A stretch of 22,973 bases of DNA from a virus. Below the pieces are notes generated by a model that did not search any database, was not told the origin of the DNA, and saw only the letters and a list, made by a program, of their open reading frames with translations. Each line of letters begins with the position of its first letter. Position 1 is the stretch's first letter. The position numbers and the translations under genes are program-made. Below, piece after piece: positions 1-22,973 of the stretch. The stretch is taken from positions 1 through 22,973 of IMG/VR virus record IMGVR_UViG_3300043496_000082; one strand, 5' to 3'.

Positions 1-68
1 GCTCGGATACCAAAACCGCGGCCGAATCGGAGCGCGGCCGCGCGCGGGTCCGTGCCGAATCCGCCTGA
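1..68 (+). CDS. 3' end of the HNH endonuclease gene (duplicate copy from the terminal repeat)
   Basis: The first 68 bases repeat the last 22 codons and the TGA stop of the HNH gene that is complete at 22558-22920. The copy has no start of its own and exists only because the circular sequence was cut inside this gene. It should be counted once. Confidence 0.85.
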   Translation, partial: SDTKTAAESERGRARVRAESA

Positions 69-121
69 ATCCCCAAACCGGGGGGGGGAGGGGCGAAGAA
101 AAAAGCGAAACCGCCCGAAAC
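1..121. repeat. Left copy of 121 bp terminal direct repeat (circular contig)
   Basis: These 121 bases are identical to the last 121 bases of the window, including the run of nine G. The HNH gene ends inside both copies, and the order HNH then terminase across the junction is the usual order in cos phages. The simplest reading is a circular molecule whose ends overlap by one assembler k-mer (121 is an odd, k-mer-like length), giving a true length of 22,852 bp. A genuine short terminal redundancy is possible but less likely. Confidence 0.9.
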
Positions 122-205: not shown

Positions 206-2071
206 GTGCAATTATCGTCACATAACGTGGACACTCCGGTACAGCCAACATTCGGCGGCGATTTCGCATCCTGGGTGAAACCGGTCAACAAGGGCGGTCG
301 ACCCCGCCTGGACGATGACGAGAAACGCCGGCGGGGCACGTTTGAGCCGGGGCGTTCCCAGGAAGCACGCCAGGCGGATCCGACGGCGCCGATGGTGCCC
401 CCCCGGGACTATCTGGCGCTTGCGGCCGGCTACGTCACCGGTGTGCGCGACGGCTCGACGCCGGCGTGCGTGTGGGTCAAGCTGGCGATCGAGCGCCAGG
501 GGCGCGACCTGGCGCGGGCGGCGGCCGACGATCCGACCTTCCCCTACGTCTGGTCGGAAGCCTACGTGCTCGACGCCTGCCACTTTCTCGAGCAGTTGCC
601 GCATACCTCCGGCAAGTGGGCGACGCCGACGCTCGAGCTCGCGCCATTTCAAGTGTTTTTCGTGGCGCTGCTGTTTGGCTGGCGGCTGCGCTCGGATCCG
701 GCGCGGCGCCGGTTTACGAGCGTCTATCTCGAGCTCGGGCGCAAGGGCGCGAAGTCGACGCTGATGGCGGGCTTTGCGCTGTATCACATGCTGCGCGAGG
801 ATGAGCCCGGCGCCGATGTCGTGTGCGGCGCATCCACGGGCGCCCAGGCGCGGATCGTGTTCGAGATTGCGCAAAAGATGGTGCGACGCTCGGCGTGGCT
901 GCGGGCGCATGGGCTGCGCGTCTTTGCCAAGTCGATTTTCATTGACGCCGGCGCGACGATGCGGCCGATCAATGCGAAGGCATCCACACAAGACGGGCTC
1001 AACCCGTCGTGCATCGTGCTCGATGAATCGCACGCGCAGTCGTTCAAGCTTCATGACGTGTTGAAGTCGGCCCAGGGCGCGCGGCTGAATCCGCTGATGC
1101 TCTGCCCCACGACGGCCGGCCACGATTTGCAGTCGGTCGGCTACGCGCTGCGCGGGACGCTGATCAAGGTGCTGCAAGGCGTGGTGACGGCCGACCATAT
1201 GTGCGGGCTGATCTATACGCTCGACGAGGGCGACGATTGGCGCGACGAGCGGGTCTGGATCAAGGCGATGCCGATGATCGGCACGACGCCGACGCTCGAG
1301 TGGGTGCGCGGGTACTCCGTCGATGCGCAAGCCACGTCGGGGCTCGAGGCCGAGTTCCGCGTCAAGATGTGTTCGCAGTGGGCGAACGCGGCGAGCACCT
1401 GGCTATCGCTCACACAATGGGACGCCTGTGCGGCGCCGATCACGATCGATCAGTTCGCCGGCGAGCCCTGCTACATCGGCGCTGACCTGGCGCAATTAGA
1501 CGATCTGGCGGCCGTGGCCCATGTGTTCGAGCGGGACGCGGTGCTGTATGCGTTCGTGACGCTCTACATCCCGGCGCTCGTGATTGCGGAGCGCGCGCGC
1601 GCGGTGCCGGAGTACCGGGCGTGGGTGAAGGCGGGGATCGTCAAAGTGACCGAGGGCAACATGATCGATTTCTCGGTCATTGAGGCGGATATCCGCGCGG
1701 CGGCGCGGCGGTTTCTGGTGCGGGATATCGTGTTCGATCAGTTCGGCTCGATTCAATTGGCCGGCGCGTTGGCGAATGACGGGCTCCCGGCGCGGATTGA
1801 AGGCAAAAACGCCAAGACCTGTACACCGCCGGCGCGGGAGCTCGAAACGCGGGTGAAGCACGGCCGATTGCGGCACGACGGCAATACGTGTCTCCGCTGG
1901 CAGGCGTCGAATGTGGTCGTGACGCGGCGGACGGACGACACGATCGTCCCGAAAAAAGAAAGCGCGGAGTCCGCGAACAAGATCGACGCGATCGACGCGA
2001 TGTTGTGGGCGATCGGCGGCTGGCTGCGCGGGCAGTCGCGCCAGGTCGACTATCAAATGGTCATTGTCTAA
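206..2071 (+). CDS. terL: Terminase large subunit (TerL)
   Basis: ATP-driven DNA packaging motor and nuclease that cuts phage DNA and pumps it into the prohead. The 621-residue product has an HK97-type ATPase with a Walker A variant GRKGAKST (178-185), Walker B CIVLDESHAQ (269-278) and a TTAG coupling motif (302-305). The nuclease half has acidic residues at D427 (IGAD), D511 (VFDQ) and D594/D597 (KIDAIDAM). Translation starts at a GTG with no clear ribosome site; a later ATG at 392 (residue 63) is an alternative and would give a more typical length. The extra N-terminus holds GGRPR and RRGTFEPGR, which loosely recall the start of small terminase subunits. No separate small subunit gene was recognised. 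Assignment to TerL is firm; the start is less so. Confidence 0.95.
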   Translation: MQLSSHNVDTPVQPTFGGDFASWVKPVNKGGRPRLDDDEKRRRGTFEPGRSQEARQADPTAPMVPPRDYLALAAGYVTGVRDGSTPACVWVKLAIERQGRDLARAAADDPTFPYVWSEAYVLDACHFLEQLPHTSGKWATPTLELAPFQVFFVALLFGWRLRSDPARRRFTSVYLELGRKGAKSTLMAGFALYHMLREDEPGADVVCGASTGAQARIVFEIAQKMVRRSAWLRAHGLRVFAKSIFIDAGATMRPINAKASTQDGLNPSCIVLDESHAQSFKLHDVLKSAQGARLNPLMLCPTTAGHDLQSVGYALRGTLIKVLQGVVTADHMCGLIYTLDEGDDWRDERVWIKAMPMIGTTPTLEWVRGYSVDAQATSGLEAEFRVKMCSQWANAASTWLSLTQWDACAAPITIDQFAGEPCYIGADLAQLDDLAAVAHVFERDAVLYAFVTLYIPALVIAERARAVPEYRAWVKAGIVKVTEGNMIDFSVIEADIRAAARRFLVRDIVFDQFGSIQLAGALANDGLPARIEGKNAKTCTPPARELETRVKHGRLRHDGNTCLRWQASNVVVTRRTDDTIVPKKESAESANKIDAIDAMLWAIGGWLRGQSRQVDYQMVIV

Positions 2072-19516: not shown

Positions 19517-19638
19517 CGACGGCGCGGTATCTGTGGCGCGTGGTGGTGGGATGCTGCAGCGGCGGCTGGCGCCTGGCGCCGGCGACGACGGGCGGCCGGC
19601 TCGAGGCGTTGCGCCGGCTGCTCGAGGGGGCGCGATGA
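19513..19638 (+). CDS. Small hypothetical peptide
   Basis: A 41-residue ORF linked by ATGA overlaps to both the gene before and the gene after. It has a hydrophobic-basic start (RYLWRVVVGCC) and an Arg/Leu-rich helix (LEALRRLLEGA). The double overlap suggests a real translated gene, but no similarity is recognised. It could be a translational coupler for the replication gene. Confidence 0.45.
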   Translation: MTTARYLWRVVVGCCSGGWRLAPATTGGRLEALRRLLEGAR

Positions 19639-20030
19639 CGGCGCCGGCGCGGTCACCGCTGGCGGCGGAGTGGTTTTGGATCGATCGGTGGCGGGGCTCG
19701 ACGGCGTGGTCCCTGCCGATCGACGCGCGCGGGCTGTATCGGGAAATGCTCACGGCGGCCTGGTCGCGTGGCGCGGCGCTGCCGAACGATCACATCCAAA
19801 TACAACGTTTGATTGGCGTGACGCCGGCGGAGTGGCGCCGCGGGTGGCCGGTGATCTGTCAGTACTGGCGCGTGGACGGCGCGCTCTTGGTGAACGACAC
19901 GCAACGCGAAGTGTACGCGGAGGCGATGGCGCGGTTTGAAAAGGCGACGGCGCGCGCGTCAAAGGGCGGCCAGGTGGCGGCGGCGCGGCGTCGGGCGCGC
20001 GGGCCGCGGCTCGAGCTCGCACGGCGATGA
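19635..20030 (+). CDS. DUF1376-type phage replication protein
   Basis: A 131-residue protein of the DUF1376 family, winged-helix proteins linked to phage replication initiation. The family pattern is clear: EWFWIDRWRGSTAWSLPIDARGLYREMLTAAWSRGAALPND (12-52), then RLIGVTPAEWRRGWPVICQYW (58-78), VNDTQREVYAEAM (86-98), and KGGQVAAARRR (110-120). It ends shortly after this core, so the usual long C-terminal segment is missing. It is the only replication candidate in the genome and lies directly before an iteron-like array. Start: ATG after GAGGGGGCGCG. Confidence 0.82.
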   Translation: MTAPARSPLAAEWFWIDRWRGSTAWSLPIDARGLYREMLTAAWSRGAALPNDHIQIQRLIGVTPAEWRRGWPVICQYWRVDGALLVNDTQREVYAEAMARFEKATARASKGGQVAAARRRARGPRLELARR

Positions 20031-20033
20031 GCG

Positions 20034-20115
20034 GCGCTTAGGTAGGTGCTTAAGTGAGTGCTTAAGCACTTTGTTAAGTATGTGCTTTGGTGCGTGCTAG
20101 GGCAGTGCTTGGGCA
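20034..20115 (+). repeat. 12 bp iteron-like repeat array (candidate replication origin)
   Basis: Seven degenerate units with a 12 bp period and consensus near GTGCTTAAG. The GCTTA block recurs at 20036, 20048, 20060, (20072 degenerate), 20084, 20096 and 20107. The third unit sits in a perfect 14 bp palindrome, AGTGCTTAAGCACT (20057-20070). The array is AT-richer than its surroundings and abuts the only replication gene. An origin with iterons is the likely reading; because 12 is a multiple of 3, a decayed coding repeat from the replication gene is an alternative. The rest of the gap to 20188 is AT-rich without other signals. Confidence 0.5.
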
Positions 20116-20188
20116 TATGCGCGAGTAGTGCATCACTTAATCACTACAAGTACAACAAGCTGATCCGATCGTTTCTTCTAAGCCGATC

Positions 20189-20425
20189 ATGGTACTGATT
20201 CCAGCATTTAGAACCTCAGAACGGCCGGAACGGCGCCGATCCGTGGTGCTGGCGATTGCGTCGGCGGTGCTGCGGCGTGATGGTCCGTTTGCGACGGACG
20301 CGGACTATTCCGACGCGGTGAAATGCGAATGTGCGCGGCTCCGGGTGCCGTATGCCGGGCTGACGGTGGCTGATGCCGTGGCGCTCGTGCGTGCGCGCCG
20401 GGCCGGTCAGGGCGGCAATGGGTAA
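20189..20425 (+). CDS. Hypothetical protein next to the repeat array
   Basis: A 78-residue protein. The start ATG (20189) has no ribosome site; an in-frame GTG at 20243 is an alternative. The predicted helical body (VVLAIASAVLRRDGPF and ADYSDAVKCECARLRVP, then TVADAVALVRARR) resembles a small helical domain, possibly DNA-binding. Its C-terminus overlaps the next gene by 8 bp. No family recognised. Confidence 0.55.
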   Translation: MVLIPAFRTSERPERRRSVVLAIASAVLRRDGPFATDADYSDAVKCECARLRVPYAGLTVADAVALVRARRAGQGGNG

Positions 20426-21550: not shown

Positions 21551-21820
21551 GTGCCGACGGTGCTCGAGCGGTTCGGCGCGTTCGCGCGCGATGCGTTCCC
21601 GCCTTGGTTCACGGCCGGCGAGCGCCGGCACTGTGAGCGCGCGTATGTCGCCGGCGCCGCGGAGGTGTTGGCGCTGGTCGATGCGTTGACGCTGGTCGAT
21701 GCGTTGGTGCGCGGTGACGATCCGGCGTGGGCGGAGCTCGGGACACTGGCCGATCAAGTGGCGGCGTATCGGGCGGCCGAAGGGTTGCCGGCGCCGGCGC
21801 GGCGCAAGGGGCGGCGCTGA
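21551..21820 (+). CDS. Hypothetical helical protein with internal repeat
   Basis: An 89-residue protein; the GTG at 21551 is chosen, with GTG 21542 possible. It is helical (VLERFGAFARDAFPPWFTAGERRH, then AYVAGAAEVLALVDAL) and carries a short tandem duplication (ALVDALTLVDAL). It ends with a basic tail and a TGATG overlap with the next gene. No family recognised. Confidence 0.55.
   Translation: MPTVLERFGAFARDAFPPWFTAGERRHCERAYVAGAAEVLALVDALTLVDALVRGDDPAWAELGTLADQVAAYRAAEGLPAPARRKGRR
21672..21706 (+). repeat. 18 bp tandem repeat in coding sequence
   Basis: CGCTGGTCGATGCGTTG occurs twice with an 18 bp period (21672-21688 and 21690-21706), encoding a duplicated LVDAL unit. It is in frame and likely a recent slippage duplication. 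Confidence 0.7.
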
Positions 21821-22248
21821 TGTTGCTGTTGGTGTCCGGCGCGACACAGTACCCACGGTCGGCGGAGGTCGGGCATTTGGTCGTGCCGAAACAATGGAGC
21901 GCGGCGCAAGCGCTGACGCTCGAGGCCGATCGGTGGGCGATGGATAACGGGTGCTTTGGCGGATTCGACGAGGGCGCGTTTATGCGGATGCTCGAGCGGT
22001 TCGACGGTGTGCCGGGCTGCTTGTTCGTGACGGTGCCGGACGTGGTGGGCGATGCGTCGTCGACGCTGGCGCGGTGGCCGTTCTGGTCGCGGCTGGTGCG
22101 CGGGCTCGGCCATCGGCCGGCGTTGGTGGCGCAGGATGGGTTGACGGCGGCGCGGGTGCCGTGGGACGAGCTCGGCGCGTTGTTCATCGGCGGGAGTACG
22201 ACGTACAAAGAATCCAGTGAGGCTACGACGATCGTCGGGCTGGGTTGA
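21820..22248 (+). CDS. Truncated TGT/DpdA-like phage protein (N-terminal part)
   Basis: A 142-residue frame starting at ATG overlapping the previous stop. It matches from memory a family common in actinobacteriophages: WAMDNGCFGGFDEGAFMRML (41-60), CLFVTVPDVVGD (68-79), ALVAQDG (100-106), VPWDELGALFIGGSTTYK (112-129). Some members are annotated as tRNA-guanine transglycosylase or DpdA-like, enzymes that exchange guanine for a deazaguanine base; the true activity of this family is unproven. Full members run about 50 residues further through a WVH-x-GRVNS region. Here the frame stops early and that region is missing. Confidence 0.65.
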   Translation: MLLLVSGATQYPRSAEVGHLVVPKQWSAAQALTLEADRWAMDNGCFGGFDEGAFMRMLERFDGVPGCLFVTVPDVVGDASSTLARWPFWSRLVRGLGHRPALVAQDGLTAARVPWDELGALFIGGSTTYKESSEATTIVGLG

Positions 22249-22370
22249 TCGAGAAGGCCGGCGCCGATTCGTTCGACGGGTCAGGGTTTTCGATGTATCC
22301 AGATACGCGGATTCCGATGGTCGCCGAATGGCGCGACGCATTGGCGCAACAACCAGGGCTCGGGCTATGA
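22245..22370 (+). pseudogene. Detached C-terminal remnant of the TGT/DpdA-like gene
   Basis: In the -1 frame relative to the upstream gene, this 41-codon stretch reads LIEKAGADSFDGSGFSMYPD and so on to a stop at 22370. GADSFDGSGFS is the expected C-terminal signature of the same family, so the ancestral gene continued here. About 20 residues (the WVH-x-GRVNS region) are lost between the halves along with a frame change, which points to an internal deletion. The remnant's stop still overlaps the next gene's start (ATGA), as an intact gene would. Confidence 0.65.
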
Positions 22371-22567
22371 GCAATCGCCAGTACTACGATCGGCGCCGGC
22401 TCGGGTTGTGCCCGGATTGCGGGGTGTCGGCGCGGCCGTTCGTGTATTGCGCCGTACATCGGGCGCAACGGCGCGCGCATCAACAGATGGAGCGCGGGCG
22501 GGATCGTGCGGGGTATAACCAGTACCAGCGGGTCTACCTGGAAGGGTGGCGCCGGCTATGCCGATGA
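22367..22567 (+). CDS. Small zinc-finger protein upstream of HNH
   Basis: A 66-residue basic protein with one zinc-finger pattern, C15-x2-C18-x9-C28-x2-H31 (CPDCG ... YCAVH), followed by an Arg-rich helix (RRAHQQMERGRDRAG). The HNH protein just downstream begins with a similar Cys/His finger, suggesting related DNA-binding modules or a partner. Its stop overlaps an ATG within the HNH gene. Confidence 0.65.
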   Translation: MSNRQYYDRRRLGLCPDCGVSARPFVYCAVHRAQRRAHQQMERGRDRAGYNQYQRVYLEGWRRLCR

Positions 22568-22920
22568 AACCGCGGCGGCGTTGCACGGTGTCACTGTGCG
22601 GCCAGGATGCGACGCCGGGCGCGTCCTACTGTGCGACGCATGCGCGGGAGGATTATCGGGCGTCAGACTCGACACGGATCCGCGGCTCGCGGCTGCAACG
22701 GTTACGCAAGCAACTATTTATGCGGTTCCCGCTGTGTGTGACGTGTCAGGCGGCCGGCCGGGTGACGATGGCGACGATCCGCGATCATGTAGTGCCAATC
22801 GCGGAGGGTGGCACGGAGGATGACCGCAACGTACAGGCGTTGTGCCAGGGGTGCTCGGATACCAAAACCGCGGCCGAATCGGAGCGCGGCCGCGCGCGGG
22901 TCCGTGCCGAATCCGCCTGA
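22558..22920 (+). CDS. HNH endonuclease, terminase-associated
   Basis: A 120-residue nuclease of the type that stimulates cos cleavage by the terminase in HK97-like phages; it is adjacent to terL across the circle junction. ATG 22558 follows GGAAGGG; GTG 22546 and ATG 22564 are alternatives. An N-terminal finger (C9, C14, C25, H28) precedes a treble-clef zinc site (C60, C63, C96, C99) framing the ββα-metal motif: DHVVPIAEGG (76-85), N91 in NVQALC. The third motif position, usually His in LC..CH..KT, is Ser here (LCQGCSDTKT), a variant. The last 68 bases lie in the terminal repeat. Confidence 0.88.
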   Translation: MPMKPRRRCTVSLCGQDATPGASYCATHAREDYRASDSTRIRGSRLQRLRKQLFMRFPLCVTCQAAGRVTMATIRDHVVPIAEGGTEDDRNVQALCQGCSDTKTAAESERGRARVRAESA

Positions 22921-22973
22921 ATCCCCAAACCGGGGGGGGGAGGGGCGAAGAAAAAAGCGAAACCGCCCGAAAC
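22853..22973. repeat. Right copy of 121 bp terminal direct repeat
   Basis: Identical to bases 1-121. It contains the last 68 bases of the HNH gene and the first 53 bases of the non-coding packaging region. It marks the closing overlap of the circular genome. Confidence 0.9.

Follow-up and report, generated by a model that had tools for sequence, protein, structure and literature searches.

Canonical phage DpdA is the enzyme that inserts 7-deazaguanines, and it shields phage DNA from restriction (Hutinet et al. 2019, PMC6884629), and singleton groups of DpdA, whose function has possibly diverged, were noted in the same work (PMC6884629). Within the PHROGs collection, canonical DpdA corresponds to PHROG 887 and PHROG 7068, as found in, for example, Seuratviruses and Rosebush-type phages. 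The presence of preQ0 synthesis genes in the genome that carries canonical dpdA is typical, not obligatory. A shorter family, PHROG 15826, is listed in PHROGs as being of unknown function and is annotated in actinobacteriophages as a DpdA-like tRNA-guanine transglycosylase (TGT). Its members include gp54 of Mycobacterium phage Majeke, gp81 and gp40 of Arthrobacter phages Sonali and Aoka, respectively, and gp03 of Rhodococcus phage ReqiPine5, each about 200 amino acids (aa) long and encoded in one frame. The original prediction had assigned the locus studied here to a family known from actinobacteriophages, and this family indeed turned out to be PHROG 15826, with 37 to 50% identity to the four proteins just named. 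Unlike these proteins, however, the copy described here lacks positions 141 to 157 and is frameshifted.

The stretch of DNA that was analyzed (the window; 22,973 bases) is a contig from an uncultured phage, IMG/VR record IMGVR_UViG_3300043496_000082, the ends of which carry an exact 121-bp direct repeat, yielding a circle of 22,852 bp. Since it encodes a terminase, a capsid with protease, a portal, an integrase-like protein, and an HNH nuclease, we consider it to represent a small, probably temperate, tailed phage. A scan of the whole circle produced no further copy of the PHROG 15826 gene. Among the neighboring genes, the one encoding a 235-aa product yielded no viral relatives in our neighbor-gene scan and the HNH gene yielded one, on a contig without a match to the window terminase. 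Elsewhere in the window (positions 19533 to 20190), a gene for a 165-aa DUF1376 protein is followed by approximately 160 bp in which no clear gene is seen but GTGCTTAAG/TTAAGT words recur; this segment may be a control region or an origin.

Two adjoining open frames on one strand of the window matched the family. Against a profile of 14 relatives, the front half aligned over profile positions 1 to 140 (21820 to 22239; 221 bits; E value, 6e-67) and the back half over positions 158 to 200 (22233 to 22361; 40 bits; E value, 1e-11), in different frames and far beyond chance, confirming that the two are parts of one broken gene of PHROG 15826. The front half also matched the PHROG 15826 profile itself (7.1e-29 over profile positions 18 to 143), whereas the back half alone reached 0.087 against PHROGs, compared to the 1e-11 obtained with the closer, 14-relative profile. 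In the numbering of an intact relative (L003), the front half retained invariants W39, D42, G44, D74, Q105-D106-G107, G124-G125, and K130, while the back half retained R159, G167, D169, D172, and W190. The expectation that both family ends would be present in different frames, separated by an internal deletion and a frameshift, was thus borne out: columns 141 to 157 are absent, and the back half lies in the -1 frame. The gene borders were likewise said to be intact, with an ATGA overlap; both are indeed intact, but ATGA describes the downstream border only, the upstream one being a 1-nucleotide (nt) TGATG overlap (Table 1).

Table 1. Features of the broken gene, its surroundings, and related loci in other phages
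Feature	Coordinates	Strand	Remarks
Exact 121-bp terminal repeat, first copy	1-121		Exact match to 22853-22973
Large terminase gene	206-2071	+	Comes after the HNH gene once the circle is closed; same arrangement in L002
Upstream border, TGATG	21818-21822	+	Stop of preceding gene overlaps start codon by 1 nt; intact
Front half, 142-aa open frame	21820-22248	+	Homologous to family positions 1-140
Back half, -1 frame, GYDDRRAGLIEKAGADSFDGSGFS...GLGL*	22221-22370 (stop, 22368-22370)	+	Homologous to family positions 158-200
Deletion junction	22233-22239	+	7 nt homologous to both gap sides (columns 139-140 or 158-159, by frame); from profile match and alignment
Downstream border, ATGA	22367-22370	+	Overlap with next gene; intact
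Next gene, small Cys-rich protein	22367-22567	+	ATGA overlap with broken gene
HNH endonuclease gene, 3' of broken gene	22546-22920	+	Pfam HNH, E value 7e-9
Exact 121-bp terminal repeat, second copy	22853-22973		Exact match to 1-121
Arthrobacter phage Sonali	L060:2884-3501		Short family (gp81)
Arthrobacter phage Sonali	L143:1041-1931		Canonical DpdA (gp87)
Escherichia phage phiG7	L059:2953-3545		Short family in two overlapping frames
Escherichia phage SHIN8	L062:2953-3545		Short family in two overlapping frames

Alignment with full-length relatives placed the gap at 17 columns (141 to 157), which in those relatives read approximately VAKARxxWVHxGRVNGK. From ATG to stop, the gene measures 551 nt, whereas 202-aa relatives have 609 nt. 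The net deficit is 58 nt (19.3 codons); the original prediction had put the loss at about 20 residues around a WVH-x-GRVNS region. The motif lost with the block, (W)VHxGRVN, includes three invariant residues, H150, G152, and R153. Family-invariant columns number 28, and all 24 of those outside the deleted block are kept; since HxGR(VN) is deleted and A142, H150, G152, and R153 are gone, the window copy, judged by its sequence, is a pseudogene of PHROG 15826 rather than a functional member. A single 58-nt deletion would explain both the missing block and the frame change, and the 7 nt at the junction are likely the remnant of a short direct repeat.

In our preferred reading, which we consider highly probable, the gene recently lost its function: one deletion of approximately 58 nt, probably by slippage between short direct repeats, would have removed positions 141 to 157 from a TIM-barrel protein of 202 aa belonging to the TGT/DpdA superfamily (PHROG 15826) and, by the same event, have shifted the frame of the 3' end. 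All that could still be made would be a 142-aa fragment without barrel strand 148 to 151, HxGR, and the second acidic motif (D169/D172), and the outcome would be a young pseudogene with untouched neighbors and borders. With that strand and HxGR deleted and D169/D172 separated, activity should be abolished, and the enzyme is almost certainly inactive.

Given that the source is a metagenome contig, that the 7-nt junction stretch fits both sides (making a shortcut in the assembly graph conceivable), and that no decay of the two halves is visible, it might be argued that the gene is intact in the real phage and that the contig merely misses some 58 nt through an assembly or sequencing artifact. 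We consider this unlikely. The circle closes on an exact 121-bp overlap, as expected of a de Bruijn assembly with a k of 121, in which case every junction-spanning 121-mer would have to occur in the reads, and a 7-nt repeat would be far too short for a misjoin. Moreover, the window's large structural genes have open frames from end to end.

A total of 133 records were scanned, 11 of which were repeats of the same contig, leaving 122 distinct records, including the window. The full gene was present in one frame in 128 of the 133 records, the remainder being the window, L020, L047, L059, and L062. Counted over the 121 distinct relatives, the gene was whole in 118; the three exceptions (L047, L059, and L062) carry frameshifts elsewhere in the gene and represent two independent events. 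L020 has one open frame, bearing an insertion: at L020:3923-4573, an extra insert lies 5' of the HxGR motif, and the frame continues into a longer protein that runs off the end of the locus. Relatives naturally lacking the middle segment, which would have spoken against a loss, were looked for among these 121, and no such short form was found. An intact gene in sister phages, on the other hand, was readily found. The nine nearest relatives (L002 to L010; 55 to 68% identical over the front half) all have whole genes, in single frames of 202 to 207 aa, and in the nearest syntenic sister, L002, the terminase of which is 64% identical to that of the window, the intact gene is followed by a gene with an HNH-like motif and the terminase gene, the same order as on the circular map of the window. 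A terminase with an even higher identity (91%) was found in L050, an 8-kb contig that ends short of the broken-gene region, and exact and degenerate pattern scans returned no contigs nearly identical to the window.

The frameshifted gene in L047 (L047:3932-4485), a Micromonospora andamanensis locus of the PHROG 15826 family, is broken near profile position 90, which constitutes a third independent break in the family. In Escherichia phages phiG7 and SHIN8, the two halves are annotated as hypothetical proteins of 94 and 109 aa and are encoded a few genes after canonical DpdA; between these phages, the back half is identical and the front half is 98% identical. Unlike in the window copy, the break lies near position 90, no block is lost, and HxGRVN is kept, so that this frameshift is an event independent of that in the window; the split gene could represent either a pseudogene that arose independently or a frameshifted gene. 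We also observed a family match in Erythrobacter phage ZS04 (PV416405.1, 63963 to 64490), inside a region annotated as encoding a DarB-like antirestriction protein, which suggests that the family can occur as a domain of a larger protein.

How long ago the window gene was broken can be gauged from the state of its halves. Departures from residues conserved in the nine nearest relatives number 1 to 2 here, compared to 0 to 4 in intact relatives, and the dN/dS ratios of both halves versus L002 and L003 (approximately 0.2 to 0.4, with dS near saturation) are similar to those among relatives. In a simple neutral simulation, the probability of keeping all invariants and both frames was 0.07 at 0.04 substitutions per site and 0.03 at 0.05, which would set an upper limit of roughly 0.04 neutral substitutions per site on drift since the break. 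With all 24 other invariants retained and selection patterns in both halves like those of intact relatives, these comparisons support a recent break, as originally proposed. The decay-free state of the halves fits a retained fragment function equally well. One such function would be a new role for the 142-aa front half, for instance in partner or DNA binding, in line with its being constrained on average and with the retention of all of its invariants. We find this hardly credible, given that constraint predating a recent break explains the pattern equally well and that the survey of 121 relatives contained no shortened relative of this kind. Folding of the front half as a lone sequence gave a pLDDT of 45, which is uninformative without an alignment.

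Besides a shed function, the original prediction had allowed for a split protein. In such a protein, the halves would be translated separately, or joined by -1 frameshifting, and would work together. The frames do overlap (22221 to 22248), a TTG codon at 22245 overlaps the TGA stop at 22246 to 22248 (TTGA), both halves look constrained by dN/dS, and the same family is split in Seuratviruses phiG7 and SHIN8. Yet, even when fused, the product would be 17 residues short and would be without strand 148 to 151, H150, G152, and R153; neither half supplies the barrel strand or HxGR. The Seuratvirus split, located elsewhere in the gene and with HxGRVN kept, has a different architecture. For the back half to retain D169/D172, its translation would have to begin at a TTG codon; inspection by eye revealed no strong ribosome-binding site. 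A functional split protein is therefore highly improbable, and of the two original options, we favor that of a shed function. Programmed frameshifting was rejected for the same gene, as it cannot restore the deleted block.

What the intact protein does can be approached through its fold. The model of L003 is a TIM barrel (pLDDT, 89.5; pTM, 0.88) in which strand 148 to 151 falls inside the deleted block. It aligns over its full length with TGT (Z about 14; 191 to 196 residues; root mean square deviation, 3.2 to 3.5), an enzyme about twice as long as the intact family member, but pyruvate kinase (Z of 15) and ribulose-phosphate epimerase score similarly. As TGT is tied with other barrels, the fold points to a TIM barrel and does not by itself name the enzyme. 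No convincing match for the family was found in Pfam or NCBIfam, and near-matches to a glycerophosphodiesterase sequence in the PDB (E value, 0.001; positions 130 to 180) were discounted, being attributed to a common barrel motif. By analogy with DpdA and TGT, the wild-type protein may exchange bases at guanine positions in DNA or RNA.

As a single case, the locus represents ordinary phage gene loss, leaving a young pseudogene of a family about which little is known. That an accessory and possibly DNA-modifying gene was lost so recently suggests that it is dispensable in the present host of the phage. Intact and broken copies, including those in cultured Escherichia coli phages with canonical DpdA, provide natural pairs for finding the role of the family. 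A more far-reaching idea, to which we would give only a small chance, is that the short TGT-like family forms a second system, separate from DpdA, for exchanging or recognizing bases. This system would have been repeatedly and independently broken (in the window phage, the Seuratviruses, and one Micromonospora locus), either because its usefulness is tied to a host defense that comes and goes or because the modification is targeted by a host system.

In summary, the label "TGT/DpdA-like" holds as far as distant homology and fold are concerned, but does not extend to canonical DpdA. Intact relatives matched PHROG 15826 only and did not match the DpdA profiles (PHROG 887/7068), indicating at the sequence level that the two families are separate. 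Canonical DpdA usually measures approximately 300 to 380 aa, versus approximately 200 aa for PHROG 15826, and is often made together with FolE, QueC, QueD, and QueE, whereas no QueC or QueD family members were found in the window or in the contigs of the nine relatives, most of which are possibly partial; a modified base, if any, would then need a precursor from the host. Both types can occur in one genome, as in Arthrobacter phage Sonali, which encodes gp81 of the short family as well as a canonical DpdA (gp87) with QueC, QueD, QueE, and FolE. The distant kinship between the families is visible when the profile of the short family is compared with that of eight canonical DpdA proteins from phages (E value, 3e-5; 88 columns aligned, in the front part), and in the DSGAF/DNGAF, IGG, H..G, and later Asp motifs, which, by eye, occur in a common order in canonical DpdA and the short family.
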